Shown here: one piece after another, positions 1,115 through 19,690 of the stretch | Numbering within the stretch: the stretch's first letter is position 1 | How the letters are laid out: each line of letters begins with the position of its first letter | Source: Pseudomonadota bacterium | Lineage (GTDB): Bacteria; Pseudomonadota; Gammaproteobacteria; CALCKW01 | NCBI GenBank assembly: GCA_039196715.1 | Contig: JBCCUP010000001.1 | Span: 186,001 to 250,000 of the forward strand | Reading direction: 5' to 3' | DNA length: 64,000 nucleotides | Notes under the pieces: generated by a model | What the model saw: only the letters and a program-made list of their open reading frames with translations | Databases searched by the model: none | Told to the model about the DNA's origin: nothing | Translations under genes and position numbers: made by a program

Positions 1115-2260
1115 TCAGGGCGCGATACCGAGCACGCCACACACGCGCTCGAGGCACTGACCCAGCGCCGCATCAGTCGGCGCGCTGAGGTTGACGTGGC
1201 CCATCTTGCGGCCCGCTCTGGCCTCGCGTTTGCCGTAAAGGTGCAACTCCGTCCCAACGGTGCCGACCACGCCAGCCCAATCCGGCGTGCCGCCTTCCCA
1301 ACAGTCGCCCAACAGGTTCAGCATCGCCGTGGGTTGCCGCAACTTCGGCTCGACCAGCGGCAGGCCACAGAGCGCCCGGACCTGCAATTCAAACTGGTTG
1401 ACATCGCAGCCGAGCTGACTGTAGTGACCGCTGTTGTGCGGGCGCGGCGCGATCTCGTTGGCGAGCAGCGCGCCGTCGGCGGTGACGAAGAACTCCACTG
1501 CCAACACACCTTGATAACCCAGGGTTTCGGCAATCGCCCTGGCCGTATCCGCGGCCGCGGCGGTGAGCGCCGGCGCTTGCGCAGCCGGCACGCGGGTGGT
1601 GTGCAGGATGCCGCCCCGGTGGGTGTTCTCACCAACCGGCAACACCACGGCCTGCCCGTTCTCGGCGCGCGCCACGATCGCAGAGACCTCCGCGCGCAGG
1701 TCGACACGCTGCTCGACCACACACGGCACCTCACCGAGGGCCGTGAACGCCGCACCGAGCGCCTCGCGACTCTCGCAGACCGCCTGGCCCTTGCCGTCGT
1801 AGCCGAGACGTGCCGTTTTCAGTACACACGGACCCGATGCGGTTTCCCAGGCGGTGTCGAGGTCACTCACGTCCCGGACCGAGGCCCAGCGAACCGTCGG
1901 CACACCGCATTCGGCGAAGAGGGTCTTCTCACGTGCGCGGTCCTGCGCGACCGTGAGCGCGTGCGCGTCTGGCGCCACACGACAGTAAGCGCTCAGTGCC
2001 TCGAGCGCGGCCGCTGGCACATTCTCGAACTCCGTGGTAACGGCATCGCAGTGCCGAGCAAAATCGGCCAGTGCCGCATCGTCGTCGAAGGCGGCGCGCA
2101 GGTGGTGGTGCGCCATGCCCCCTGCCGGGCTGTGCGGATCGGCGTCGAAGACATGAACGCGATACCCCATGCGAATGGCTTCGAGCGCAAACATGCGCCC
2201 GAGTTGTCCGCCCCCGAGCACCCCGAGTGTCGCACCGGGCAACAGCGGTGTCATCGTCAT
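1115..2260 (-). CDS. purK: N5-carboxyaminoimidazole ribonucleotide synthase PurK
   Basis: PurK is the ATP-grasp enzyme that carboxylates AIR with ATP and bicarbonate to N5-CAIR, the substrate of PurE in de novo purine synthesis. The 381-residue length is normal for bacterial PurK. The N-terminal Rossmann-like loop [11 protein letters not shown] is typical, the ATP-grasp region lies around residues 95-290, and the late motif [14 protein letters not shown] is a PurK hallmark. Its ATG overlaps the purE stop codon (ATGA), so the two are translated as a coupled pair, matching the usual purEK arrangement. purC lies divergently beyond purE. Confidence 0.96.
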
Positions 2261-2754
2261 GACGCCCCCGACGGCAAGCTCATCGCCAACGCGCGATCCC
2301 GTTGTGCCTCACGAAACGCCGACAGCGCTTCGCGCAGCGACACGTCGTGATTTGCCAACACCGACACGGCAAACAGGCCCGCGTTCGCAGCGCCGGCCTC
2401 ACCGATGGCAAAGGTTGCCACCGGCACACCTCGCGGCATCTGAACGATCGACAGCAGCGAGTCCTGCCCCTGCAGGTGCCGGGACGGCACGGGCACACCG
2501 AGCACCGGCAACGTGGTTTTGGCCGCTAGCATGCCCGGCAAGTGGGCGGCGCCACCAGCACCGGCAATAATGCAGCACAGTCCCCTTTCCTCGGCGGACG
2601 ACGCGTAGGAGAACAGCAGATCCGGTGTGCGGTGCGCCGAGACAACCCGCGTCTCGTGGGCAACGTCGAACTGCGAGAGAACGGATGCGGCGTGCTGCAT
2701 CACGGGCCAGTCGCTGTCACTGCCCATGACGACGCCAACCAGAGGAGAAGGCAT
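2257..2754 (-). CDS. purE: N5-carboxyaminoimidazole ribonucleotide mutase PurE
   Basis: PurE (class I) moves the carboxyl group of N5-CAIR to give CAIR. At 165 residues it has the expected size. [12 protein letters not shown] near the N-terminus binds substrate phosphate, SAHRTPD carries the catalytic histidine, and [14 protein letters not shown] completes the active site. It is first of the purEK pair and overlaps purK by 4 bp. The roughly 130-bp gap to purC, which reads the other way, must hold the promoters of both purine transcription units. No PurR-type operator was identified there. Confidence 0.96.
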
Positions 2755-2888
2755 GCCGGAACCTCGGCTCAGCTAAAAGCGCATTTTCCCAGAAGTGGCC
2801 GAGCGGTCAAGCCGGAGTCGCGCCGGCACCGACTGGCGGCCCGCGCAAATGTGACAGAATACCGCTCCAACCACGGAGGCCACAGCTC

Positions 2889-3782
2889 ATGCCGCGCGCT
2901 GTCTTCGACACCGCCATCCGCTCACTGTCCCGCATCCACCGCGGAAAAGTGCGCGACGTGTTTGCCATCGACGAGGACCACCTGCTGATGGTGGCGACCG
3001 ACCGCGTGTCTGCGTTCGATGTGGTCATGCCGAATCCCGCGCCCGGCAAAGGCCAGTTGCTGACCGAAGTCGCGCTGTTTTGGTTTACCCACTTTTCCGA
3101 CACCCGCAACCACCTCGCCACCCTCACGCTCGACGATGTCTTGTCGGACCCCAAGGAGCGGGCCGAAGCCAGCGGGCGCGCAATGGTGGTCAAGCGACTC
3201 GGTGGCCTGCCGATCGAGGCCGTGGTACGAGGCTACCTGATCGGCTCGGGCTGGAAGGACTACCAGGCCACCGGCTGCGTGTGCGGCATCCCGCTTCGTG
3301 CCGGGCTCGAACAAGCCGGTCGACTCGACAAACCGCTGTTCACCCCGGCCACCAAAGCGGCGGTCGGCGACCACGACGAGAACATTTCCTTCGCTGAAAC
3401 CGCCCACCGGATCGGGCGCGAACGGGCAGAACAGGTACGCGACGTGAGCCTCGAACTCTACCGGCGCGCCGCAGCCCACGCCGAGGCGCGCGGCATCATC
3501 ATCGCCGACACCAAGTTCGAGTTCGGACTCGACGCCGACGAGAATCTGGTGTTGATGGACGAGGTGCTGACCCCCGACTCCAGCCGCTTCTGGCCCGCTG
3601 ATCGGTACCGACCCGGCTGCAGCCCACCGAGTTTCGACAAGCAGTTCCTGCGTGACTGGCTCGAGACGCTCGACTGGGACAAGACGGCGCCCGGACCGGA
3701 CCTGCCGGCGTCCGTCATCGAGGGTACGCTCGCCGGTTACCGTGAAGCGCGAGACCGGCTTGTGGGTCCGCCCCGTGTCTGA
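2889..3782 (+). CDS. purC: SAICAR synthetase PurC
   Basis: This enzyme joins CAIR and aspartate with ATP to give SAICAR, the step after PurE. At 297 residues it belongs to the longer form of the family, starting with [20 protein letters not shown], the nucleotide-binding segment. [10 protein letters not shown] and the late IADTKFEFG and [13 protein letters not shown] motifs are all diagnostic. The ATG at 2889 follows a GGAGG-like site (ccacggaggcc). Its last codons overlap the GTG start of the first Gfo/Idh/MocA gene by 8 bp, so purC leads a four-gene run with three sugar-type oxidoreductases. Confidence 0.95.
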
Positions 3783-4812
3783 GCGCATCGGCATCGCCGT
3801 GATCGGCTGCGGTATGGCCGCGGCACCCCACGCCCGTGCGCTCCGCGACCTCGCCCACCGGGCCGAGGTGATTGGCGTGCACGCACGCAAACCCGCCACG
3901 CGTCAGGCGTTCTGTGCGGCCTGGGGCTTCCGGGAGGCCGCGGACGGCCACGCCCTGCTGGACCACCCGTCGGTCGACATGGTGTTGCTGCTGACGCCGC
4001 CCGACGCGCGCGCCGAGTGGGTCAACGCCGCGGCCGAGCGCGCGCTGCCGGTGCTGATGGAGAAACCGGTCGAGCGCACCCTGGCCGCCGCCAAGGCGCT
4101 CGTGGCGCGTTGCGAATCGACCGAGACTCCCTTCGGAATCGTCTTTCAGCACCGGTTCCGCGCGGCGGCGCTGGCCTTGCACGAGCGGGTGCAGCAGGCG
4201 GCGTGGGGGCCCTTGCACCTGGTCAAGGTTGACGTGCCCTGGTGGCGCGAGCAGCGTTACTACGACGAACCCGGGCGCGGCAGCTACGCACGCGACGGTG
4301 GCGGCGTGCTGATCAGCCAGGCGATCCACACGCTCGACCTGATGCTGAGTCTGACGGGGCCTGTCGCCGAGGTCCGTGCGCTGACCGCGACCACCGGCTA
4401 CCACCGCATGGAGAGCGAAGACCTGGCCGTCTCCGCATTGCGCTTCGAAAACGGCGCCCTCGGTTCACTCACCGCGACCACGGCACAGTACCCGGGCGGC
4501 GCCGAATCACTCGAGCTCGGCTTCGCACGTGCCACCGCGCACCTGTGCGCCGGCGAGCTCACCGTTCGGCACCTCGACGGCCGCGTCGAGACCCTTGGCG
4601 ACACGCAGGAAACCGGGGCCGGTGCCGACCCGATGGCGTTCCCCCACGATTGGCACCTCGCCCTGCTGACGGATTTCGTCGACGCCGTTGACGCCGGTCG
4701 CCCGCCGGCGGTAACCGCGCGGGACGCCCTGCAGGTGCACCGTTTGATCGATGCCATCGTGCAGTCCTCTGCGGCCGGCCGCGCCGTCAACGTGAGTCAC
4801 GTCGATGCCTGA
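3775..4812 (+). CDS. Gfo/Idh/MocA family NAD(P)-dependent oxidoreductase, first of three
   Basis: I place the start at the GTG at 3775, which overlaps the purC stop by 8 bp and puts the Rossmann strand at the N-terminus ([19 protein letters not shown]). This gives 345 residues, typical of the family. The EKPVERT motif holds the catalytic lysine of the family, and [18 protein letters not shown] supplies the conserved GG...H.D C-terminal-domain signature. Such enzymes oxidise or reduce sugars, inositols and related polyols. The substrate cannot be told from the sequence. It overlaps the next paralogue by 8 bp. Confidence 0.88.
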
Positions 4813-5830
4813 AGCCCCCGTCACCGTCGCCGTCATCGGCATCGACCACAGGCACGCCTACGGCCAGCTTCAGGGCATGCTCGATGCCGGGGCACAGTGC
4901 GTCGGCTGGTGGACCGAGGGCGAGCCGAACACCTTGCCCGGCTTCGTCAAACGCTTCCCCGACGTGCCACGGGTGGCGTCGCGCGAGACCGTGCTCGCCG
5001 ACCCACGCGTCGACCTCGTGATCGTCGCCGACATTCCGGCGAACCGCGCCGCGCGCGCGATCGAGGCGATGCGTGCCGGCAAGGACGTGATGACAGACAA
5101 ACCGGGGTGCACCACCGCGGCACAGCTGGCCAAGCTGCGCGACGTGCAACGCGACACCGGGCGAATCTGGTCGGTCGATTTCTCGGAACGGTTCGAAGTG
5201 CCGGCCGTACAACGCGCAGCCGAACTGGTGCGCGAGGGCGCCATCGGCCGCGTGGTGCAAACCGTCGGCCTGGGCCCGCACCGACTGAACGCGGCGACCC
5301 GCCCCAACTGGTTTTTCGAGCGCCACGCCTACGGCGGCATCCTCTGCGACATCGCCTCGCACCAGATTGACCAGTTCCTCTATTTCACCGACGCCGACAA
5401 TGCCGAGATCGTCAGCGCAAGCGTGGCCAACTACGCCAACCCCGACCACCCGGAGCTCGAGGACTTCGGCGAGTTGGTGCTCCGCCACGAGCGCGGCCAC
5501 GGGTACATCCGCGTCGACTGGTATACGCCCGATGCCCTGCCCACCTGGGGCGACGGTCGGCTGACCCTGCTCGGCACCGAGGGTACGATCGAATTGCGCA
5601 AGTACGTCGACGTCGCCGGTCGCCCGGGCACCGATCACCTGTTCTTGTCCAACCGCACCCGGTGCGAACACATCGACTGCAGTACAGTGCCACTCTCGTA
5701 TTTTCGGTCGCTGGCGCACGACGTGCGGCACCGCACCGAGACGGCGATGCCGCAAGCGCACGCATTCACGGTCATGGAACTTGCTTTGCGCGCACAGGCG
5801 AGCGCCACCCGACTTGGCGCGCTGGTATGA
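4805..5830 (+). CDS. Gfo/Idh/MocA family oxidoreductase, second of three
   Basis: A 341-residue paralogue that starts inside the preceding stop region (ATGCCTGA overlap). The N-terminal Rossmann domain begins VTVAVIGIDHRHAYGQLQGM, with GIDH replacing the usual GxGxxG end, which suggests altered cofactor contact. TDKPGCTT carries the lysine of the family EKP motif, here as DKP. HAYGGILCDIASHQIDQFLY is the conserved C-terminal-domain segment with the active-site histidine. It is coupled to the third gene by an ATGA overlap. The substrate is unknown. It is probably a step of the same polyol or sugar pathway as its neighbours. Confidence 0.87.
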   Translation: MPEAPVTVAVIGIDHRHAYGQLQGMLDAGAQCVGWWTEGEPNTLPGFVKRFPDVPRVASRETVLADPRVDLVIVADIPANRAARAIEAMRAGKDVMTDKPGCTTAAQLAKLRDVQRDTGRIWSVDFSERFEVPAVQRAAELVREGAIGRVVQTVGLGPHRLNAATRPNWFFERHAYGGILCDIASHQIDQFLYFTDADNAEIVSASVANYANPDHPELEDFGELVLRHERGHGYIRVDWYTPDALPTWGDGRLTLLGTEGTIELRKYVDVAGRPGTDHLFLSNRTRCEHIDCSTVPLSYFRSLAHDVRHRTETAMPQAHAFTVMELALRAQASATRLGALV

Positions 5831-6900
5831 GTCACACCGTTGCCATCCTGGGCGCCGGCATCGGTGCGCAGCACCTCGACGGCTACCTCGCGCTGCCGGA
5901 CACCTACCGGGTCCACACGGTGTGTGACCTCGACATCGACCGGGCCGCTGCGCTGGCCGCGCGCGCGCGCGGCTGCCGCAGCACGTCGGATACCGATGCG
6001 GTCATCGGCAACAGCGAGATCGACATCGTCGACGTGTGCCTGCCACCGCACCTGCACGCGGACACTGCCATCAAGGCGATGCAAGCCGGGCACCACGTGG
6101 TTTGTGAGAAGCCGCTTGCAGAATCCGTGGATGCGGCGGAGCGCATGATCCAGGCTGCACAGGACTGCAACCGACTGCTCACACCCATCTTCCAGTACCG
6201 ATTCGGGCCGGCATTCACGCAGTTGCAGGCGCTGGTCGACGCCGGTCTTGCAGGGCGTCCACAAGTCGCTTCGCTCGAAACCCACTGGAACCGCGGCTCG
6301 GACTACTATGCCGTCCCCTGGCGTGGCACCTGGGACCGCGAGCGGGGTGGCGCTGTGCTGGGGCACGCAATCCACATTCACGACCTGATCACGGAATGCT
6401 TCGGCGCCGTCACCGCCGTCGGCGCGATGCTCGACACCCGCGTCAACCCGATCGAGACGGAAGACTGTGGTGCGATTTCGATGCGGACGTCGAGCGGTGC
6501 CCTTGTCACGTCCTCGATCTCGCTCGGTGCCGCCTGCGACCAATCGCGTCTGCGCCTCGTGTACCAACACCTCACCGCAGAGAGCGGCACCAACCCCTAC
6601 GCGCCCGGGCAAGGCACCTGGACCTTCACCGCGCGCGACCCCGCTCGGCAAGCCGCTGTCGATCGCGTCGTTGCGGCAACGCCACCGGGCCACACGGGTT
6701 ACGCCGGGCAGTTCGCCGAGTTGGCGCGGCAACTCGGCGGCGAAACGCACCGCAACGTCAGTGCAGCGTCGGGCCTGCAAGCACTCGAACTTGTCGCCGC
6801 CACCTACAAAGCCCACCGCGAACGCCGCGAAATCACCCTGCCGCTTGGCCTGAACGACCCCGTGCGCCAGGACTGGCGCCCGCCACAAAACCCGTGCTGA
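5827..6900 (+). CDS. Gfo/Idh/MocA family oxidoreductase, third of three
   Basis: The ATG at 5827 overlaps the previous stop (ATGA), giving 357 residues. The Rossmann motif VAILGAGIGAQHLDGYL is a clear GxGxxxxxH dinucleotide loop. CEKPLAESVDAAERM contains the catalytic-lysine EKP motif, and RGGAVLGHAIHIHDLITE contributes the conserved histidine and aspartate. There is no transporter or regulator beside the trio, so the pathway cannot be named. The gene ends 88 bp before the convergent retroelement target gene. Confidence 0.88.
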   Translation: MSHTVAILGAGIGAQHLDGYLALPDTYRVHTVCDLDIDRAAALAARARGCRSTSDTDAVIGNSEIDIVDVCLPPHLHADTAIKAMQAGHHVVCEKPLAESVDAAERMIQAAQDCNRLLTPIFQYRFGPAFTQLQALVDAGLAGRPQVASLETHWNRGSDYYAVPWRGTWDRERGGAVLGHAIHIHDLITECFGAVTAVGAMLDTRVNPIETEDCGAISMRTSSGALVTSSISLGAACDQSRLRLVYQHLTAESGTNPYAPGQGTWTFTARDPARQAAVDRVVAATPPGHTGYAGQFAELARQLGGETHRNVSAASGLQALELVAATYKAHRERREITLPLGLNDPVRQDWRPPQNPC

Positions 6901-6988: not shown

Positions 6989-7789
6989 CTAGGGGTCTTC
7001 ACCTCCGGCCAGGCGGAAGCCGAAGTCGTCGTCGCGGGCAGCGGGATCGCCCGCGAAGCGGAACGCCGCGCGCAAGTAGCGCGGGACGTTGAACCAGCAG
7101 CCACCGCGCAACACGCGCTTCCGGCCCTGTTGCGGACCTGTTGGATCGATTACCTCGCCGGTTGGGTAGTCGCCATACCAATCGCCGCACCACTCCCACA
7201 CATTTCCATGCACCTGAAACAAGCCGAAATCGTTTGCCTCGAACGCGAGCGCATCCACCGTTTCTTCTCTGTACTCGCCTTTGCCACCGCCGCGGTAGGC
7301 CAAATTCCCATCGTAATTCGCTTGCGCTGGCGTGATCGCGTTGCCCCACCAAAACGGTGTCTGGGTGCCGGCGCGCGCGGCGTACTCCCATTCGGCTTCG
7401 CTCGGCAAGCGCAAGGTCAAGCCGGCAACCGGCGCGTTGGCCCGCTCCAAGAATCGCTGACAATCCTCCCAACTCACCGTGTCCACAGGCCGTTCGTCGC
7501 CTTTGAAATGGCTTGGATTGTTGCCCATCACCGCCTGCCAAAATGCCTGTGTGCACGCCGTGTCCGCGAGCCAGTAACCCTTTGTCAGGGTCACTTTGTG
7601 TGGTGCCTCGCCGTCGAAGCGCTCAGGCTCCAATTCAGTCGAACCCATCTGAAACCGGCCTGGCGGAACCCAGCGCATCACCTGCCGGGCGCCGTTCAGT
7701 TCAAGCCCTTGCCAGAGCCCGAACGGGTCTTCGCCGAAACCGTGCGCCCAGGCAGACGGAAACTCGCGCGGGTTGGGGTCGAGCAGCAT
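6989..7789 (-). CDS. DGR target protein 2: FGE/SUMF1-fold protein with C-terminal variable region
   Basis: A 266-residue protein if the ATG at 7789 is used. The frame is open back to a TTG at 7915, with no better start in between. It is a formylglycine-generating-enzyme (C-type-lectin-like) fold: RWVPPGRFQMGS, then EAEWEYAARAGT, then HGNVWEWCGDWYGDYP, ending in RVLRGGCWFN and FGFRLAGGEDP. The last 42 residues are VR1. The two catalytic cysteines of true FGEs, which follow GGSY in those enzymes, are replaced by residues N and L, so it is probably a binding scaffold and not a sulfatase-activating enzyme. It is the last gene of the retroelement, directly after the TR. Confidence 0.88.
   Translation of the reverse strand: MLLDPNPREFPSAWAHGFGEDPFGLWQGLELNGARQVMRWVPPGRFQMGSTELEPERFDGEAPHKVTLTKGYWLADTACTQAFWQAVMGNNPSHFKGDERPVDTVSWEDCQRFLERANAPVAGLTLRLPSEAEWEYAARAGTQTPFWWGNAITPAQANYDGNLAYRGGGKGEYREETVDALAFEANDFGLFQVHGNVWEWCGDWYGDYPTGEVIDPTGPQQGRKRVLRGGCWFNVPRYLRAAFRFAGDPAARDDDFGFRLAGGEDP
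7003..7130 (-). repeat. DGR variable region VR1
   Basis: This segment aligns without gaps to the TR at 7961-8088. It has 16 substitutions, every one at a position where the TR coding (minus) strand has A. The encoded changes hit mostly AAC and GAC codons of the TR: I to F, D to V, N to Y, N to F, N to G, D to A, and N to D. The first 20 bp on the plus strand (ctccggccaggcggaagccg), which sit at the 3 prime end in coding sense, are identical in TR, VR1 and VR2 and probably contain the IMH-like initiation site. Homology stops at 7131, where a non-adenine mismatch begins. Confidence 0.93.
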
Positions 7790-7960
7790 CAGACGCGACC
7801 CGCGTGGTTGGAAAGGCGGCCTGCTGGCGGGCTTTTGGTGAGCAGGTTCCACCTGCACCGACTCACGCGCCAGAGGCCTTGGGTTTGTCCGCACAGGGCG
7901 AAACTGGCGTGGCAACTGGTTTGAAGACCCTCCGGGCGCTGCTGCCTAGATCTGCAAAGC

Positions 7961-8088
7961 TCCGGCCAGGCGGAAGCCGATGTTGTCGTTGCGGTCAGCG
8001 GGATCGTTCGCGTTGCGGTTCGCCGCGCGCAAGTTGCGCGGGTCGTTGATCCAGCTGCCACCGCGCAACACGCGCTTCTGGCCTTGTG
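7961..8088 (-). repeat. DGR template repeat (TR)
   Basis: A non-coding copy of the variable region, 40 bp downstream of the reverse-transcriptase stop codon. Read in the target frame it would give [18 protein letters not shown] followed by [20 protein letters not shown]. This is an FGE-type C-terminus loaded with AAC and GAC codons, where A-directed mutation gives the widest amino-acid choice. Outside 7961-8088 its similarity to the VRs ends at once: aaag precedes it on the plus strand, where both VRs have tcac. No start codon or full ORF accompanies it, as expected for a template RNA. Confidence 0.94.
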
Positions 8089-8128
8089 CTGCCAGCCGCC
8101 GACAGTATTGATCGGCCTCAAAACGGGA

Positions 8129-9133
8129 TCAAGCATCCAGTGACTCCTTAGAGGCCAAAAATCGCGCTCGAAACTCGGCAGAATCAGCGGGCATCAATGC
8201 GCTGTGCAACGCCGTGACGCGCTGTTGCAAGGTGGCGCTGTTAATATCACCGCGCAGCCAGGCCGCCTCGATATGCGCAATGCCCGCGCGAAACCGCCGC
8301 TTGCGCCGCAACCCCAGCCGCAATGCGTGTGGCTTGACGGTGATGCCGCAAAACCGCACCCCCACCCAGCTGCGCTGAATCAGTGGGGGCTTGAGAGACA
8401 GCCCAAGCGTGTCCCCGAGGTAGTCAGCAAAGCGCACCTGCACGTCCAGCAACGCCTGCCGATCATGTGACCACAACAGGAAGTCATCCATGTAGCGGCA
8501 ATGCGCACGCACACCGGGCTGCGCGAGGCACCACCGGTCGGCGTCATTGAGGTAATGGTTGGCAAAGTGCTGTGAGGTCAGCGCGCCAATCGGCAAGCCT
8601 CGGCCGAGCCTGGCACCGTGCGCATCAATCGCCGCCGCCAGCAGTGCACAGCCGTCGCCGCGGAACCGTCGCCGCAATTGACTGTGCAACGTCAGGTGGT
8701 CTATCGACGGGAAATACTGTGCGATGTCTGCGTGCATCACCCAGGCGAACCGCCTGCTGTTGCGCTGAGCATGATCAAGCGCGGCGTGTACACCCTTGCC
8801 AACCCGGCAGGCAAACACCGACGGCAACAACGCCCGCTCCAGCCGTGGCTCAACGTGGCGCACCAGCGCGTGGTGGGCCACGCGGTCCCAAAGCGGTGCC
8901 GCGTGGATCACGCGCTGTTTCGGGTCATGAATCTCAAAAGCCTTGAACCGCCCAACCGGCATTCGGCCGGCCATCAAACTGTCATGGATCATCCTATTGA
9001 CAGACCGTCTGTCCAACAACAGAGCTCGCACCTCCGGCAAATGCCGCTTGCCACGACAGGCGCGGTCCATGGCCCAGTCTATGTTGTCCGGGTGGGCGAT
9101 CTGTGCACGTATCAGGGCTGTGGTGTCAGGCAT
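8129..9133 (-). CDS. DGR reverse transcriptase
   Basis: The start is the ATG at 9133, whose first 8 bases overlap the HRDC stop codon, giving 334 residues, usual for DGR RTs. The catalytic aspartates are in DIAQYFPSI (D136) and YMDDF (residues 214-217). The motif LPIGALTSQHFAN (about 180-192) with GxLTSQ, in place of the QGxPxSP of group II intron RTs, is characteristic of DGR enzymes. There is no maturase or endonuclease domain. It copies TR RNA into cDNA with adenine-specific errors for transfer to the VRs. The TR lies immediately downstream. Confidence 0.95.
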   Translation of the reverse strand: MPDTTALIRAQIAHPDNIDWAMDRACRGKRHLPEVRALLLDRRSVNRMIHDSLMAGRMPVGRFKAFEIHDPKQRVIHAAPLWDRVAHHALVRHVEPRLERALLPSVFACRVGKGVHAALDHAQRNSRRFAWVMHADIAQYFPSIDHLTLHSQLRRRFRGDGCALLAAAIDAHGARLGRGLPIGALTSQHFANHYLNDADRWCLAQPGVRAHCRYMDDFLLWSHDRQALLDVQVRFADYLGDTLGLSLKPPLIQRSWVGVRFCGITVKPHALRLGLRRKRRFRAGIAHIEAAWLRGDINSATLQQRVTALHSALMPADSAEFRARFLASKESLDA

Positions 9134-9587
9134 CCAATTCACCCAGTACGGCCAACACAGCGTTCGCGTAGCGCTCCATGCGCTTCTCACCCACACCATC
9201 CACCGCTGACAGCGCTACGCGATCAGGCGATTCCAACTGCGCGATATCAGCCAGTTGCTCGTTGGTGAAGATGGCATAGGCCTGGACATTTTCAGCTTTC
9301 GCGACTTGTTTGCGCCACGCGCGCAATCCGGCGAAGCGGGAAAAGTGCCCGGGGCTGAGGACCTGTTGGTAGTCGATAGCGTTGCGAGGCGCCGTTCTCG
9401 ACGGTTGCACAGCGTCGGCAGCAGCCTTGACCTCACCCGGCACGGTGCAACACACCGCCCAGAAACTGTTGACACCATCTTCCACCCACTGGCGGTCCAC
9501 AGTCGCCAGGGGATGGCTCGCCAAAAAGGCGTTGAGTTCGTCCGCATGCGACCCGGATGCCATCGCGGGGACGCGGAAGAACACCAT
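9126..9587 (-). CDS. DGR accessory protein with HRDC domain
   Basis: I chose the ATG at 9587, 2 bp after the stop of target 1, giving 153 residues. An in-frame ATG at 9608 would overlap target 1. The N-terminal half (MVFFRVPAM, then DGVNSFWAVCC, then IDYQQVLS) matches a block common in DGR-linked HRDC proteins. The C-terminal half is an HRDC nucleic-acid-binding domain: LRAWRKQVAKAENVQAYAIF, then TNEQLADIA, then VDGVGEKRMERYANAVLAVL. In many DGRs this protein replaces Avd, the RT partner. A role in RT or cDNA handling is inferred from that association. Confidence 0.9.
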   Translation of the reverse strand: MVFFRVPAMASGSHADELNAFLASHPLATVDRQWVEDGVNSFWAVCCTVPGEVKAAADAVQPSRTAPRNAIDYQQVLSPGHFSRFAGLRAWRKQVAKAENVQAYAIFTNEQLADIAQLESPDRVALSAVDGVGEKRMERYANAVLAVLGELDA

Positions 9588-9589
9588 TT

Positions 9590-12136
9590 TCACCGGCCTG
9601 CTCGCCACGCCGGCTCGCGGCTGCTACGCGGCGCGGTCCCCGCACCGCGATCCGCCGTCGCCTGCGCGGCTCGCCGGCTGGCTTCCGGGTCTTCACCTCC
9701 GGCCAGGCGGAAGCCGATGAAGTCGTTGCGGGCAGCGGGATCGCGCGCGTTGCGGCCCGCCGCGCGCAAGTCGCGCGGGGCGCTGAACCAGCTGCCACCG
9801 CGCAACACGCGCTCCTGGCCTTGCTCTGGACCAACGGGGTCCACCAAGGCACCCGCACCGTATTGAGCAAACCAATCTGAACACCATTCCCACACATTCC
9901 CATGCATGCTGCGCAATCCGTAAGGGTTAGCCGGGAAATCTCGCTCATCTTGGACACCATCACCCTCGCTCCCCAGCGATGGGTCAAATAGGTCACCCCA
10001 CCAAAACGCGCTTTGAGTGCCCGCTCGGCAAGCATTTTCCCACTCCGCTTCAGTGGGCAAACGCGCGGTAAAGCGCGGGCACTTTTTCATCAGTTTTTTG
10101 CACCATATCTGGCAGTCTTCCCACGAAAGATCCGTGGCGGGGAGATTCGCATTGTCTGTCGAGGTCTTGCCCAACACCCCGTCCCAGAAAGCCTGCGTCA
10201 CCGTCGTCTCCCCGAGCCAATAGCCGCACGAGAGAGTCACATCGTGCAGCGTTTCGTTTTCATAGCGCCCCGCTTCATCATCCGGCGACCCCATCTGAAA
10301 CCGGCCCGGCGGAATCCAGCGCAGCCGGTAGCGCATGTTGGCGACGGCCAAATCCGCCCACAAGCCCCTCTCGTCCACGCCATGGCTGTCTGCCCACGTC
10401 CAACCAGAATCTACCGGCTGCCAGCCCCACGCACCATTCTCGCCGTGTACAGGCTGCCAAGCGAAGCGCGCGCCGTCCGCGTGCACGGCGAACACGATAC
10501 CGTCCTCATTGGAAAAAAACCGTGATGCCCAGGCAGGTCGTGTCAGGCGGTCGAGCTGCCAAGTGCGATCACCCTCGATGATGCTGCAAGGGCGTGACAG
10601 TGGCGCGGCCACAGAGACGGGCTGCCGGGAGACCGATTCCACGGCGGCATCGCCAGTGCGCAACACCGTTTGAACTGCTGAGCCTCGGAACGCCGCCACC
10701 GCGTGCAGGGCATCGCCTCGTTGCACCAAACCAATGACCCGGCTAGATGGGGCTGATGCACCCAGCAGCGGTTGTGGCAGCCGGTTGCGCTCCGCGACAG
10801 CCTGCAACGCGGTCAGGAATTGGCGGTGCTCCGTCGTGACAGGCGCGGTATCGGCCAGTTCACAACCGAGGTCCATCAACTCGGCCAACACGCTGTCAGC
10901 CGCTACCCCGCCGTGGCTCTGCGCGCTGACGCGGGCAAGTTGCAGCAGATTGCCAAGCGCTGCCCCACTCGAGTCGCCGGCGGCGAGCCGGGTTTGCAAC
11001 TGCTCGGCATCGCGCCAAGCGGCTGGCTGATAGACGGCCCACGCAGACACCGCGCGCTCAACACGCGCACGCTGGGCTGCGGGCCAACGTTGGTAGCGCG
11101 CACGCCAAACGCCTCGCGCGTCGCGCCGGAGGCGGACCGCGCTGGCCTTTCGCTCTACATCCGGGTGGCGGCTCGCGGCAAGCTCATCGGCCAGGCTCAG
11201 CCCGAGCGCCAGCCGCAACGCGCGCAGTTGCGCCCGGCCAAGCCAGAGACAGGCAGCCATGGCGGACAGCAGAGACTCAGTGCCGTCCGGTGCCACCGCG
11301 CAGAGCGCACAGCTGCGCCAAGCGGCAGCACGCAACGGAAATAGACTCAACAACCTGAGATCTAGCCCCTGTCGCGCCAAACCCGCCAAATCGCTGTGCC
11401 AGGCGGCGCTCGGCGACCCGCCACGGGTGCCGAAGTCGCTGATCACCAGCACCGGGACATTAGGCGGCACCGTGCGAGCATCGAAGGCCGTGTGTGGCGC
11501 AGACACCGCTTGCCAGCCGCCCGCCCCCGGGCGCTGGTAACGAACGCACACCCGCAGGCCGGCGGGGTCATGCTCGACAACGAGCTGCCGAACCACAGCC
11601 TCGACATCGGGCCAGACCGCGCGCAGCGCCGGCGAAAAATCCACCAGCACCGCACACGCCGCAGCGCTGTGCTGGCGCCGCGCTCGCGGCAACGCGCTCA
11701 CTGGTTCGCCGCGCGCCAGGTGCAACGCCGCCCGTTTGAGGTGCGGTTGACGGGTCTGCCGTACCGTGCCAAGCAAGGCATCAAGCGCGTTGCGTAATGC
11801 GCCTCGGTGCCACGCGGGCGCCTGTGGCATCCAGGGTGTCATGGCTTCGCGGTAATCAACCGGGCCGGTGTCCTCGAAAGCGAGCGGCTGCACTGGCGTG
11901 AAGTCGCGTTCCGCGGTGATCGCCCAGATCGCCAATGGGTGATGCGCCCGATACAACACGGCCCGCTGCGCGATGCCGTTGTGCGCGGGATCATCATCCG
12001 GTTCAAGCCGAGCTTGCGCCGATTCCGTGTTGCGCACGGCAAAACCGAGTCGTGCCGCAACGGTATCGGCGTCAGTGTCTCTGGCGTTTTGCAAGGCCCG
12101 CAACAACGCAGCCCGCGAAGTGGTCGCCCGGTTCAC
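9590..12136 (-). CDS. DGR target protein 1: vWA-like region fused to FGE/SUMF1-fold domain
   Basis: An 848-residue protein with a GTG start at 12136 overlapping the ATPase stop (GTGA). Residues about 160-270 look like a degenerate von Willebrand A domain: CAVLVDFSPALRAVW, then VPVLVISDFGTRG, then LARQGLDLRLLSLFPLR. It lacks an intact DxSxS MIDAS. Residues about 601-817 are an FGE/C-type-lectin-like fold: LRWIPPGRFQMGSP, then PTEAEWENACRAGT, then HGNVWEWCSDWF, then RVLRGGSWF and FIGFRLAGG. VR2 covers residues about 771-813. Unlike target 2 it does not stop at GGEDP but continues for 31 residues rich in Arg, Ala and Gly. FGE catalytic cysteines are absent. The middle, about 280-600, is not assigned. 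Confidence 0.88.
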   Translation of the reverse strand: MNRATTSRAALLRALQNARDTDADTVAARLGFAVRNTESAQARLEPDDDPAHNGIAQRAVLYRAHHPLAIWAITAERDFTPVQPLAFEDTGPVDYREAMTPWMPQAPAWHRGALRNALDALLGTVRQTRQPHLKRAALHLARGEPVSALPRARRQHSAAACAVLVDFSPALRAVWPDVEAVVRQLVVEHDPAGLRVCVRYQRPGAGGWQAVSAPHTAFDARTVPPNVPVLVISDFGTRGGSPSAAWHSDLAGLARQGLDLRLLSLFPLRAAAWRSCALCAVAPDGTESLLSAMAACLWLGRAQLRALRLALGLSLADELAASRHPDVERKASAVRLRRDARGVWRARYQRWPAAQRARVERAVSAWAVYQPAAWRDAEQLQTRLAAGDSSGAALGNLLQLARVSAQSHGGVAADSVLAELMDLGCELADTAPVTTEHRQFLTALQAVAERNRLPQPLLGASAPSSRVIGLVQRGDALHAVAAFRGSAVQTVLRTGDAAVESVSRQPVSVAAPLSRPCSIIEGDRTWQLDRLTRPAWASRFFSNEDGIVFAVHADGARFAWQPVHGENGAWGWQPVDSGWTWADSHGVDERGLWADLAVANMRYRLRWIPPGRFQMGSPDDEAGRYENETLHDVTLSCGYWLGETTVTQAFWDGVLGKTSTDNANLPATDLSWEDCQIWCKKLMKKCPRFTARLPTEAEWENACRAGTQSAFWWGDLFDPSLGSEGDGVQDERDFPANPYGLRSMHGNVWEWCSDWFAQYGAGALVDPVGPEQGQERVLRGGSWFSAPRDLRAAGRNARDPAARNDFIGFRLAGGEDPEASRRAAQATADRGAGTAPRSSREPAWRAGR
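9632..9649. other. GC-rich hairpin downstream of VR2
   Basis: The sequence cgcggt-ccccgc-accgcg forms a 6-bp stem with a 6-nt loop, 48 nt past VR2 in the coding direction and inside the C-terminal extension of target 1. Its stem and loop sizes equal those of the hairpin after VR1, although the sequences differ. A part in retrohoming is inferred by analogy with other DGRs. Confidence 0.4.
9697..9824 (-). repeat. DGR variable region VR2
   Basis: It aligns without gaps to the TR. Twelve substitutions fall within 9697-9823, all at TR adenines on the coding strand. A thirteenth, also at an adenine, falls at the very end of homology. Encoded changes include I to F, N to S, D to A, N to D, N to G, N to R and N to F. 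Several TR codons (N, N, D and the last I) are unchanged here but altered in VR1, so the two VRs have diversified independently. Confidence 0.93.
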
Positions 12137-13068
12137 GGATCGGACGCAGGGCTGTTCTGAAAATAGCGGCCAAGCTTGGTCAACCAGTCTCGCTGCTGAT
12201 CCGCGCTTGCGCCCTCCCGGCCGAGCGAATGCAGCGCGTGCAACAGATCAAGGTACTCGGCGAGTCCGGTGTAGGGCCGCTGGCGGCAGTTTGCGCGGTC
12301 GTCGAGGATTTGCCGGGCTGCGTCTTCGAGCACACCGTCGCACAGCATCGGATAGCGGCCGCTGCCGACCGTGACAAAATACGCCAGCGGCTCCGACGGC
12401 AGTTGCAAGTGCAAGTGCGTGCAACGGCGCAGGAAAGCCGCCGGCAGTTCGCGGTCTTCATTGCTGGTAAAGACAACCAGCGGGTGTGGACAACCCGACT
12501 CGGCCCTCACCGGTTGGTCACGGTGCGGCACCTGAATGCAGCGGTCGCCGAGGCTCTCGAGTAGGCTGTTGGCCACACTCGCGTCAGCCTTGTCAATTTC
12601 ATCGACCAGCAGCACCACGCCACATTCCGCGATGGACGCGCCTGTGCCATCGCCCACGTTGGCCCAGTTGGGCTGGTACTGGTGGCGGTTTTTCGCCTCG
12701 CCCGCCGACACCGGGCTCAGTGCCCACCACATCGGCCCGGGGCACAGGTAGGCCTGATCAGGCTGGATGTCGTGCTGTTGCGCGTCGGCCAGTCGCGCGG
12801 TGTAGTCGTAGGACCACAGCAGCGTCTGGGCCTCGGTGTAGGGCTGGATCACGACGCTCAGAAACGCGCGATCGAGCACCGCCGCCGCCGCGCGCGCGAG
12901 CTGCGACTTGCCCAACCCGGTTTCGCCGGTCACGAGGAGCGGGCGCTCTGACGCCACCGCTGCCATCACCGCGTAGACCGACACGCTGTCCCAGTGGTGC
13001 GCGATATCCGTATGGCCTGCGATGGGCTGGGCGGTGTCGACAATGCGGGGCAGTTGATCCAGTTGCAC
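12133..13068 (-). CDS. MoxR-like AAA+ ATPase of the retroelement operon
   Basis: The likely start is the GTG at 13068, 4 bp after the upstream stop, giving 311 residues. An alternative start at 13164 would overlap the upstream gene by about 90 bp. Walker A is GETGLGKS (48-55), Walker B VVLLVDEID (151-159), sensor 1 VVFTSNEDREL, followed by the arginine pair in AAFLRRC. This is the MoxR/dynein-related pattern. MoxR ATPases act on or with vWA-domain partners, and the next gene carries a vWA-like region and overlaps this one by 4 bp, so a MoxR-vWA pair feeding the variable protein is likely. Substrate and trigger are unknown. Confidence 0.87.
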   Translation of the reverse strand: MQLDQLPRIVDTAQPIAGHTDIAHHWDSVSVYAVMAAVASERPLLVTGETGLGKSQLARAAAAVLDRAFLSVVIQPYTEAQTLLWSYDYTARLADAQQHDIQPDQAYLCPGPMWWALSPVSAGEAKNRHQYQPNWANVGDGTGASIAECGVVLLVDEIDKADASVANSLLESLGDRCIQVPHRDQPVRAESGCPHPLVVFTSNEDRELPAAFLRRCTHLHLQLPSEPLAYFVTVGSGRYPMLCDGVLEDAARQILDDRANCRQRPYTGLAEYLDLLHALHSLGREGASADQQRDWLTKLGRYFQNSPASDP

Positions 13069-13072
13069 GGGG

Positions 13073-14725
13073 TCAGGCCCCGCCCACGCCGAACAGGCCG
13101 GCAATGCCGGTGGCCACCGGCAACAACACCTTGGCCGTGTCTGCCAGTACCCCGGCGCCGTCACTCACGGTTTTGAGGTCGCCCATTGCCAACACGAAGC
13201 GTTGCACGGCAGACTGCTTTTCACTCGCCTGCGCTTGCCCCGCGCCCTCTGATTCGTACGCCGCCGCGAGCGCGCCGGCGGCCGCGTTCAGGTTGGCCAG
13301 TTCGGTTGCATGCGCCACGTCGGCAGCTTGTGCACCGATGAATGTGTCAAGCGAATTGACCGCATTCAGCAAGTGGGCTTTTTCCGCGTCACTGAGGCTG
13401 ACAGCCGTGTTGTGCGTGCTGTTGGCAGTGACCGTCTCCGCTTGGGTGTTAATGAACACGTTGCCAGTGGCATTAATGGTTGGCGCCGCGGGGGGTGTTG
13501 TCATGGCATTTTGCTCCGTGGGTGTTTCAGCGGGGGTGTCGTCGTGGGTCTCAGCCGAGGCCGACTGTCTCGTCGCGTTGAGATCAACCAGCAAACGCTC
13601 GATCAGGTTGAGCAGATCATCGGCCGGGTGCGTATGACCGCCCGTGACGATGGGCAGCTGACCCAACGTTTCACGCACAGCGATCAGCATCGCCGCGTCG
13701 ACCTCGCGATCCGCAATGACGAAGCGGTGATCAGGGTTCGCGTCGGCGTTGGTCAGCAACAGTGCCGCTCTGAAGTCGCGGAGCCATCTGTCGTATTCTT
13801 CTGAGTGGGGATCTTCCGGCACATCGCCCAGATTGAAGCCGACGGAAAGCTCGCTGGCCAAGGCGCGCAATCCGAAGTCGACATTGACACTTTTGACGAC
13901 CGGGAACGCCACGGTGTGCGGCGACAACGCTTCGACGTTGGTGTCAGTGACGATGAGGTGTGCGAGGTCATCACACCCGAGACTCGCCGACACGGCTGCA
14001 CGTGCGTGCCAGGGCAACCGGCTGGCAACGTCGCCAAGGGAGTCACCGTCAAACAGGCGGTTGAGCACTGGCGCATTCACCGCGTAAAGTGCAAATGTCC
14101 GCAGCAGCCAAGCCACCAAGTCAATGTGGCGACTTTCCAGCTCAGACCCCGAGACTTGTATGAAGCGATACGCGCGTGGCAGGCACACACTTGACGCGAC
14201 GGTGTCCAGGCTGTTGGTGAAGCGTTTGGCGAGGCTCTCCGGTGTCGCGTCAGCATCCGCCTCAACCCAGGACGCGACCGCGGCGTAGAGGTCGAGCGCG
14301 TCGGACTGCATCTCGCGCAACACCACGACGATGGGCCGCGTGCGTTTTACATCGCGCTCCGCTTCTCGGGCTGCGAGCAACGCGTCATCCCGCTCGGCTT
14401 GGTTGGCCGCCTCCGTCGCCGCGCGCGCGTCAGCTTGTGCGGCGCAGAGCGCATCGGCCAACGCGGCTTGCGCCATACCTTGGTACTCGGGATATCCGTG
14501 TTGTTTGACGTACTTGGCCAGATTCAGCGTTCGCTCCGCGCCGTGAGACAAGACTCCTGTCGACCCGCTGTTGCTCAGGATGCGTTTGATCGTCGAGTCT
14601 TTAACACCCAGGCACTCGCACAAGCCGACTGTCTGCGTTTGGCGATGTCCGTGCGCCGGCGCCGGGACAAATTGATCGAACCAACAGCGTTCCACCGCTA
14701 ACCACCTGCCTAGTTGAACTTTCAT
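13073..14725 (-). CDS. Unrecognised 550-residue protein heading the retroelement operon
   Basis: The start is taken at the ATG at 14725 (a GTG lies 6 bp upstream). No convincing Shine-Dalgarno site is visible. Near the N-terminus, VGLCECLGVKDSTIKRILSN could be a small helix-turn-helix. Residues about 80-115 are Ala/Glu/Arg-rich and probably coiled coil. The centre is mostly helical with no catalytic motif that I recognise. Around residue 415 an Asn/Thr-rich stretch (INATGNVFINTQ) is followed by alanine-rich helices and a Gly/Val-rich hydrophobic tail ending TGIAGLFGVGG. Because it sits just upstream of the MoxR ATPase, it may be the effector or sensor of the system, but no function is shown. 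Confidence 0.72.
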   Translation of the reverse strand: MKVQLGRWLAVERCWFDQFVPAPAHGHRQTQTVGLCECLGVKDSTIKRILSNSGSTGVLSHGAERTLNLAKYVKQHGYPEYQGMAQAALADALCAAQADARAATEAANQAERDDALLAAREAERDVKRTRPIVVVLREMQSDALDLYAAVASWVEADADATPESLAKRFTNSLDTVASSVCLPRAYRFIQVSGSELESRHIDLVAWLLRTFALYAVNAPVLNRLFDGDSLGDVASRLPWHARAAVSASLGCDDLAHLIVTDTNVEALSPHTVAFPVVKSVNVDFGLRALASELSVGFNLGDVPEDPHSEEYDRWLRDFRAALLLTNADANPDHRFVIADREVDAAMLIAVRETLGQLPIVTGGHTHPADDLLNLIERLLVDLNATRQSASAETHDDTPAETPTEQNAMTTPPAAPTINATGNVFINTQAETVTANSTHNTAVSLSDAEKAHLLNAVNSLDTFIGAQAADVAHATELANLNAAAGALAAAYESEGAGQAQASEKQSAVQRFVLAMGDLKTVSDGAGVLADTAKVLLPVATGIAGLFGVGGA

Positions 14726-14973: not shown

Positions 14974-16038
14974 TCAGTTCACGCGCGGGTCCAGTGCACC
15001 GGCGTTGTAGCGCTCGACCATGCGGTCGAGTTTGAGCACGTTGATCTTGCTGGCGTTGCCGGCGGTACCGAAGGCCTCGTAGCGCGCCAGGCAGATGCTC
15101 TTCATCGCATCCTTGGCGACACCGAGGTATTTGCGCGGATCAAATTCGGCCGGTTTCTCCGCCATGAACCGGCGAATGGCACCGGTGCTCGCCATGCGCA
15201 GATCGGTGTCGATGTTGACCTTGCGCACACCGTTGCGGATGCCCTCCTGGATCTCCTCGACCGGCACGCCGTACGTCTCGCCCATCTCACCGCCGTGGTC
15301 ATTGATGACCTGGAGCCACTCCTGCGGTACCGACGAGGAGCCGTGCATCACCAGATGGGTGTCCGGGATACGCGCGTGGATCGCCTTGATGCGGTCAATC
15401 GACAGGATGTCTCCGGTCGGGGGTCGGGTGAATTTGTAGGCCCCGTGGGACGTACCGATTGCAATGGCCAGTGCGTCCACCTTGGTGTCACGCACGAAAC
15501 TCGCCGCCTCCTCGGGGTCGGTGAGCAGCTGATCGCGCGACAGGATACCCTCGGCGCCGGAACCGTCCTCCTCGCCGGCCATGCCGGTTTCGAGCGAGCC
15601 CAACACGCCCAGCTCACCCTCGACAGACACGCCGATCGCATGCGCCATCTCGACCACCTTGGCCGTCACACCGCTGTTGTAGGCGTAGTCGGCGGGGGTC
15701 TTCATGTCCTCCTCGAGCGAGCCGTCCATCATCACGGACGTGAAACCGAGCGCCATCGCCTGCTGGCAGATGGCCGGCGACGACCCGTGGTCCTGGTGCA
15801 TGCAGACCGGAATGTGCGGCCACTCTTCCACGGCAGAGAGGATCAGGTGACGCAGAAAAGGCGCGCCGGCGTACTTGCGGGCCCCGGCCGAGGCCTGGAC
15901 GATCACCGGGCTGTCGGTCTCGTCGGCGGCCTCCATGATGGCACGCATTTGTTCCAGGTTATTGATATTGAAAGCGGGTACGCCGTAACCATGCTCGGCT
16001 GCATGGTCCAGCAGCTGACGCATCGAGATCAGTGCCAT
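14974..16038 (-). CDS. fba: Class II fructose-bisphosphate aldolase
   Basis: A metal-dependent aldolase interconverting fructose 1,6-bisphosphate with glyceraldehyde 3-phosphate and DHAP. The 354 residues start [30 protein letters not shown] contains the conserved zinc-ligand and catalytic HxDHG block. GTSHGAYKF and [19 protein letters not shown] are phosphate- and Na/Zn-site segments. The overall form resembles the class II subtype often called Calvin-cycle (CbbA-like), but no other Calvin genes are in the window, so glycolysis or gluconeogenesis is the safer role. It follows pgk on the same strand after a 141-bp gap. Confidence 0.95.
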
Positions 16039-16179
16039 GGGGTGTCCTTAGTGGGTGCGCGGGCGCGCGAGCAAAAGTGTAGTCAGTGTATCAAGCCGGC
16101 TACATTCGCCGCCAAGTCACCCGTTGGACCTGCACGTACAAGGCCAACCCCGCCCACCGAAGGCCCGCGCGGACCGGGC

Positions 16180-17370
16180 TCAGCCGGAGGCGTCGGCAGC
16201 CCGGCGTGCCAGCATCGCCACGGCCGGCAGGGTCTTGCCTTCGAGGAACTCCAGAAAGGCCCCCCCGCCAGTCGAGATGTAAGACACATGGTCGGCAATA
16301 CCGTACTTGTCGACCGCCGCAAGGGTGTCGCCGCCACCGGCAATGGAAAACGCCGAGGAGGACGCGATCGCACGGCCCACCGTCTCGGTGCCGGCACCGA
16401 ACTGATCGAACTCGAACACACCCACCGGTCCGTTCCAGACGACCGTGCCGGCGCGCCTGACGATCTCGGCGTACCGCGCCGCGGTTTCAGGCCCGACGTC
16501 GAAGATCATGTCGTCAGGCGCCACATCACCCACGGCCTTGGTGACCGCTGGCGTGTCGGGGTCAAAGGCCTTGCCGCACACCACGTCGGTGGGCACCGGG
16601 ATGTCACCGCCCTGGGCCTGTGCCGCCGCACGCAGGCTGCGGGCCGTGTCGCAGAGGTCGGGTTCACAGAGCGACTTGCCCACCGCACCGCCTTCGGCGG
16701 CGATGAAGGTGTTGGCGATGCCGCCGCCCACGATCAACTGGTCTACCACCGTCGAGAGGGACTCGAGCACAGTCAGTTTGGTCGACACCTTGGACCCTCC
16801 AACGATGGCAACCAACGGGCGCGCGGGCTGCTCGAGCACGCGTGCGAGCGCCTCGAGCTCGGCCGCGAGCAGCGGGCCCGCGCACGCGACCGGTGCGTGC
16901 AGGCCCACGCCGTGGGTGGATGCCTGTGCCCGATGAGCCGTGCCGAATGCGTCCATCACGTAGACGTCGCAGAGCGCAGCGTAGGCCTTCGCCAACGCGT
17001 CGTCGTCGCGCTTCTCACCCACGTTGAAGCGCACATTCTCGAGCAACACCACGTCACCGGGTTCGACCTCGGGCGGCGTTTCGAGGTAGTTGTCGACCAG
17101 TCGCACCGGGTGCCCGAGCAGCGTGGCCATGTGGCTCGCGACCGGCGCCAGCGACTGCGCTGCGTCGTACTCGCCTTCGGTCGGACGGCCGAGGTGGGAC
17201 ATCAGCAACACCCGCGCACCGGCATCCCGTGCCTGGATCACCGAGGGCAAGGCGGCGCGAATCCGCGCGTCGGATGTCACCGCACCGTCTCGCAAGGGCA
17301 CGTTCAGGTCCTCGCGAATCAGAACCCGTTTGCCCTCAAGGCGCAGCGACGCCATCTCGAGAATTGCCAT
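16180..17370 (-). CDS. pgk: Phosphoglycerate kinase
   Basis: The enzyme transfers phosphate between 1,3-bisphosphoglycerate and ADP in glycolysis. It has 396 residues, of normal length. The N-terminal [15 protein letters not shown] is the family signature, [14 protein letters not shown] binds 3-[14 protein letters not shown] and GGGIANTF follow, and [16 protein letters not shown] with SIAGGGDT form the nucleotide site. The ATG at 17370 is used, although an in-frame ATG five codons later is equally possible. pgk before fba is a common gammaproteobacterial order (often epd-pgk-fba). Confidence 0.96.
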
Positions 17371-19613: not shown

Positions 19614-19690
19614 GGGCCCTTAGCTCAGTTGGTTAGAGCATCCGACTCATAATCGGCAGGTCCCCAGTTCAAGTCTGGGAGGGCCCACCA
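19614..19690 (+). tRNA. tRNA-Ile2 (anticodon CAT, lysidine-modified) or elongator tRNA-Met
   Basis: A 77-nt cloverleaf with encoded CCA. The acceptor stem is GGGCCCT/AGGGCCC, the D arm GCTCAGTTGGTTAGAGC, the anticodon loop CTCATAA (anticodon CAT), and the T arm CCCAG-TTCAAGT-CTGGG. The T-loop form TTCAAGT and the loop context resemble E. coli ileX more than elongator tRNA-Met, and ileX also lies near rpoD in E. coli. This favours an isoleucine tRNA reading AUA after TilS modification. Met cannot be fully excluded from sequence. Confidence 0.9.

Follow-up and report, generated by a model that had tools for sequence, protein, structure and literature searches.

In diversity-generating retroelements (DGRs), by the published criterion, at least 75% of the mismatches between the template repeat (TR) and a variable repeat (VR) fall at TR adenines (PMC8144416), and the accessory protein is of the Avd, HRDC or MSL kind (PMC10053308). 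In the DGRs of clade 5A (Thiohalocapsa PB-PSB1 DGR 8 and relatives), a MoxR ATPase is encoded upstream of a long target without a predicted N-terminal domain, and a short lectin-only target is also present; the authors of that study propose an antigen-sensor role (PMC10907252). HRDC is a regular DGR accessory protein in Treponema denticola, where, in the TvpA-type DGR, its gene lies between the TR and the reverse transcriptase (RT) gene (PMC4891356). The DGR of Bordetella phage BPP-1 has Avd, a TR upstream of the RT and a tail-fibre target. MoxR and an FGE-bearing target, both found with the DGR studied here, are also components of the VMAP/MoxR-vWA ternary conflict systems (PMC7159879).

We analysed a stretch of 64,000 nucleotides from a member of the Pseudomonadota (the window), and found on its minus strand a cassette with the order upstream ORF, MoxR ATPase, target 2, HRDC, RT, TR and target 1 (Table 1), which we read, with a probability of about 0.96, as a complete chromosomal DGR of the well-described group. 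Its architecture is that of published clade 5A, the match being one of gene order: MoxR is directly upstream of the long target, the second target is short and lectin-only, and an unrelated gene occupies the place of VMAP, whereas the host is outside the described set and an HRDC accessory gene is present (PMC10907252). With the Treponema system the cassette shares an HRDC gene overlapping the RT and FGE-like targets, but not the gene order; with BPP-1 it shares an RT homologue, adenine mutagenesis and the IMH/IMH* difference, but it has HRDC instead of Avd. Compared with the ternary conflict systems, no VMAP was found in the window, and vWA is only suspected.

Table 1. Features of the DGR/MoxR cassette (window coordinates)
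Feature	Coordinates	Strand	Remarks
IMH-like 3' junction of VR1, GGTGAAGACCC	6993..7003	-	
Target 1, short FGE/C-type-lectin protein	6989..7789	-	PF03781 1e-43; C-terminal VR1; ORF open to 7915
VR1 (variable repeat, target 1)	7003..7130	-	16 sites differ from TR, each a TR adenine
Spacer element GGGTCTTCAAACC followed by AG	7916..7930	-	presumed priming CAG 7918-7916
IMH*-like 3' end of TR, GCTTTGCAGATCT	7948..7960	-	
TR (template repeat)	7960..8087	-	128 bp, 28 adenines; sole donor copy in assembly
DGR reverse transcriptase, 334 aa	8129..9133	-	RVT_1 1e-9; YMDD and LPIGALTSQ intact
HRDC-domain accessory protein	9126..9608	-	PF00570 1e-16; overlaps RT start by 8 bases
IMH-like 3' junction of VR2, GGTGAAGACCC	9687..9697	-	
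VR2 (variable repeat, target 2)	9697..9824	-	13 sites differ from TR, each a TR adenine
Target 2, 848 aa, long N-terminal part and C-terminal FGE/C-type-lectin domain with VR2	9590..12136	-	PF03781 3e-41
Possible degenerate vWA (Rossmann-like) domain, N-terminal part of target 2	11309..11710	-	model pLDDT 67, pTM 0.62
MoxR-like AAA ATPase	12133..13164	-	AAA_5 5e-14; bpMoxR 0.001, below cut-off
Upstream ORF, 552 aa	13073..14731	-	placed like extra component of related loci

The RT frame is open upstream to 9199, and 9133 is its presumed start. RVT_1 and an RT family of PHROG both match the protein, and the assembly contains no second PF00078 match; of the solved structures, 8ub7 ('Reverse transcriptase'), which we take to be the BPP-1 DGR enzyme, is the best relative by sequence. 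The HRDC gene supplies an accessory protein of one of the three DGR kinds. Both targets carry their VR at the C-terminus, the C-type-lectin fold being assigned by family match, and a different contig of the assembly carries one more FGE gene. The upstream ORF has no match in Pfam, NCBIfam or PADLOC, and is 22% identical to its positional counterpart in a related locus described below (L004:2674-4182). Rfam has no match inside the cassette; the only Rfam/ARAGORN match in the window is a tRNA-Met (cat) at 19614-19690 on the plus strand.

The three repeat copies were realigned by computer, and align without gaps at offsets of 957 (VR1) and 1737 (VR2); searches of the whole 4.95-Mb assembly found no other copies. 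A preliminary description, based on hand alignment, had reported 28 substitutions, 16 in VR1 and 12 in VR2, all at template adenines. The adenine-only placement and the VR1 limits and count stand, but the TR had been set one base off, at 7961-8088, and VR2 had been ended at 9823, so that an A>G at 9824 was missed and the total is 29. A non-adenine change, the one observation that would have spoken against the pattern, appears only in that off-by-one register (a single C>A at 8088). In the correct register, none of the 100 non-adenine sites differs in either VR, as had been claimed, so that 100% of the mismatches lie at TR adenines, above the 75% threshold. In the coding sense, VR1 has 9 A>T, 6 A>G and 1 A>C, and VR2 has 7 A>G, 3 A>T and 3 A>C, which gives 12 changes to T, 13 to G and 4 to C overall; the hypergeometric probability of such placement, with 28 adenines in 128 positions, is 3.3e-13 for VR1 and 1.8e-10 for VR2. 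Nine TR adenines are altered in both VRs and eight in neither, and a comparison of the two VRs gives 17 differing sites, every one a TR adenine. The reported richness of the TR in AAC and GAC codons is borne out (7 AAC and 3 GAC among 18 adenine-containing codons); only one TR codon is able to turn into a stop, and each target could take about 10^16 forms at the nucleotide level and 10^15 at the protein level.

These observations support the mutagenic retrohoming that the preliminary description had proposed: the changes are confined to adenines with T, G and C as outcomes, a DGR-type RT is adjacent, and the VRs are at the C-termini of lectin-fold targets. We infer past retrohoming from the adenine-only differences. 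The TR RNA would be transcribed in the coding sense, from the minus strand, and copied by the RT, which would misread adenines; the mutated cDNA would then replace the 3' end of the two C-type-lectin-fold targets, perhaps with the assistance of the HRDC protein, and would so recode the binding face of these receptor-like proteins, and non-adenine bases would be restored to the template at each round.

The cassette might also be a genuine DGR that no longer works, with VRs as relics of old retrohoming, and decay of this kind does occur. In the related locus L004, from a Lamellibrachia endosymbiont, the remnants of HRDC and RT have been joined by a deletion (7700-8642), and the TR differs from its VRs at 11 and 9 non-adenine sites. 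We nevertheless consider inactivity rather unlikely for the window, where both the RT and the HRDC frame are unbroken and neither VR has any non-adenine drift; the comparison with L004 suggests, as far as sequence can tell, that the cassette has been recently active, and retrohoming was probably recent. Locus L005, from Candidatus Desulfobulbus rimicarensis, has the same gene order and the same TR/VR arrangement as the window, and its TR/VR differences are all at adenines except for a C>G at the IMH; target 2 can be aligned with both loci. Conservation of TR adenines between the window and L005 reaches only p = 0.06, and the hairpins or cruciforms to be expected downstream of the VRs, with z of -4.3 and -2.8 in L005, are not significant in the window (-0.31 and -1.46). 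One congener, G003, has a site without the 8-kb DGR/MoxR cassette (L035, contig C89, around 4951-5104): window positions 2013-6819 and 14974-17321 match adjacent L035 stretches about 150 bases apart, with the flanking genes aligned, so that the cassette either is an insertion or was lost in G003. No RT match was found in the other two congeners.

The two targets are paralogues, and one might suppose that a gene end was simply duplicated and then altered by drift and selection without any retroelement action. The base-specific pattern refutes this. The limits of the 128-bp repeat were placed where non-adenine differences start (8088 and 7959) and are thus partly chosen by the result, so a control independent of the edges was added: outside the VR the target 1 and target 2 genes differ at 47 of 157 sites (30%), and inside it at none of the 100 non-adenine sites (about 4e-16). 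Together with the presence of RT, HRDC and TR in cis, this leaves plain duplication a negligible probability. Adenine deamination or another DNA or RNA editor would also place all changes at adenines, but 16 of the 29 are A>T or A>C and not A>G, and an RT cassette lies in cis, so that editing is scarcely credible.

A full-length model of target 2, built from three sequences, is useless (pLDDT 42). The model of its N-terminal core is Rossmann-like, with Asp after predicted strands 1 and 4; the best match in a viral library is a VWFA protein (E 0.007, TM 0.46), and the list of PDB matches is led by phosphoribosyltransferases, with vWA lower, all at TM below 0.47. Pfam has no vWA match in this part of the protein, and a profile of the domain retrieved from PDB sequences only designed TIM barrels, which is uninformative. 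Judging from this weak fold similarity, the N-terminal part likely contains a degenerate vWA domain. The ATPase is of the MoxR type found in the ternary conflict systems (by AAA_5, with bpMoxR only below the cut-off), and the ORF in the place of VMAP has no family match. Both targets probably serve as sensors in a conflict system linked to MoxR, which agrees with the role proposed for clade 5A. Relatives of the MoxR/long-target pair adjoin a TIR protein (L039:2441-4980) or a calcineurin-like phosphoesterase (L038:5526-8465), and such differing neighbours suggest the exchange pattern expected of effectors. A DGR-linked protein of a Microcystis plasmid (L195:1-1413) is annotated 'SAV_2336 N-terminal domain-related', which may name the N-terminal part of such targets; a plasmid of Acaryochloris carries a set of MoxR, long target and short target.

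The 3' ends of the repeats show the IMH/IMH* difference, with GGTGAAGACCC in the VRs and GCTTTGCAGATCT in the TR. When the TR 3' flanks of the window, L005 and L004 are aligned, a conserved element, C.GGAGGGTCNNNAAACCAG, is seen at variable distance; reverse-complemented, it reproduces the 11 bases at the 3' junction of the VR apart from a 2-base bulge, and between loci the middle bases of the spacer element and of the VR junction covary. In the window the element is complementary to the TR at 7 of 9 positions, and the first mismatch is matched by both VRs. The counterpart spacer bases of BPP-1, AGGTGGTCA, end at position 56 counted from the annotated TR, presumably the known priming A56, with the priming CAG in the spacer. 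Structural work reportedly sees a TR/spacer RNA duplex. With such a duplex, and with cDNA synthesis primed by a spacer adenine within IMH* (PMC12875486), complementarity of the spacer to the TR is expected; what is unexpected is that the mismatches of the duplex are matches to the target.

This pattern recurs in other DGRs: ahead of the presumed priming CAG, the spacer pairs with the TR save for one or two primer-near bases, which match the VR instead. Among 15 loci, complementarity of the spacer to the VR of its own locus exceeds that to swapped VRs (permutation p = 5e-5). In 39 BPP-1-like configurations, element base 4 agrees with the VR in 38 and with the TR in 6, and base 7 with the TR in 26 and with the VR in 5; since the register in this count had been picked by VR match, the test was redone blind to the VR, with CAG site and register picked by TR match alone (at least 7/9). 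In the 28 configurations left, which include the window, cyanobacterial plasmids and BPP-1-like phages, the VR matches 33 of the 37 spacer/TR mismatches at which it differs from the TR (chance 1/3, p = 2e-12, which like the other p-values for this rule is optimistic because several configurations share a locus or kinship); at ten further mismatches VR and TR are the same. When VRs were swapped among 16 representatives, the observed count was reached in none of 5000 trials. Counted per locus, the primer-nearest mismatch is VR-matched in all 13 non-BPP loci, the window included, and in 11 of the 13 it lies no more than 4 bases from the primer end.

The 7/9 cut-off was set after a looser one (at least 5/9) had failed on newly fetched loci, where the first mismatch followed the VR in 8 cases and the TR in 7, because most of these loci have no recognisable CAG element; in several gut-phage and other loci the spacer element is absent. 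Shuffle tests of spacer/VR complementarity are mostly not significant for loci taken singly (0.035-0.055 for the window). A plain count of matches over 9 bases gives 105 for VR and 86 for TR (p = 0.10), no clear excess, since the element is chimeric, resembling the VR close to the primer and the TR at a greater distance. Anchors other than CAG are an unclean control because they overlap the same element.

We put at even odds the proposal that the DGR spacer RNA carries the identity of the target in its primer, as a TR-pairing segment into which a VR-pairing mismatch is built, in most cases at 1-4 bases from the end of the primer; this claim is separate from, and weaker than, the identification of the locus as a DGR. 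The RNA-primed cDNA would be a better fit to the IMH of the target junction than to the IMH* of the template it was copied from, and recognition would be by pairing; alternatively, primer bases may be transferred to the target. Both mechanisms would account for copying that proceeds only from TR to VR. At locus L041 (5031-5060 and 6735-6765) the TR end together with the spacer recurs, inverted, as the VR junction, matching over 28 bases with one A-run base different; this junction would be a product of copying the primer strand into the target, or equally of hairpin inversion. No earlier description of the spacer-VR match was found in the literature searched, in which coverage of key papers was incomplete, and this possible rule for telling target from template is apparently undescribed. 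That it matters whether a repeat ends in IMH or in IMH* is old knowledge, for which, to our knowledge, no reason has been given.

As a hypermutating sensor cassette linked to a MoxR system, the window locus is a clean addition to the examples available. The rule for the primer is more important than the locus itself and worth specialist attention: if true, it would give a base-pairing reason for the IMH/IMH* difference, would make the priming site of any such DGR predictable from sequence alone, and would make DGR targeting directly testable by compensatory mutations.
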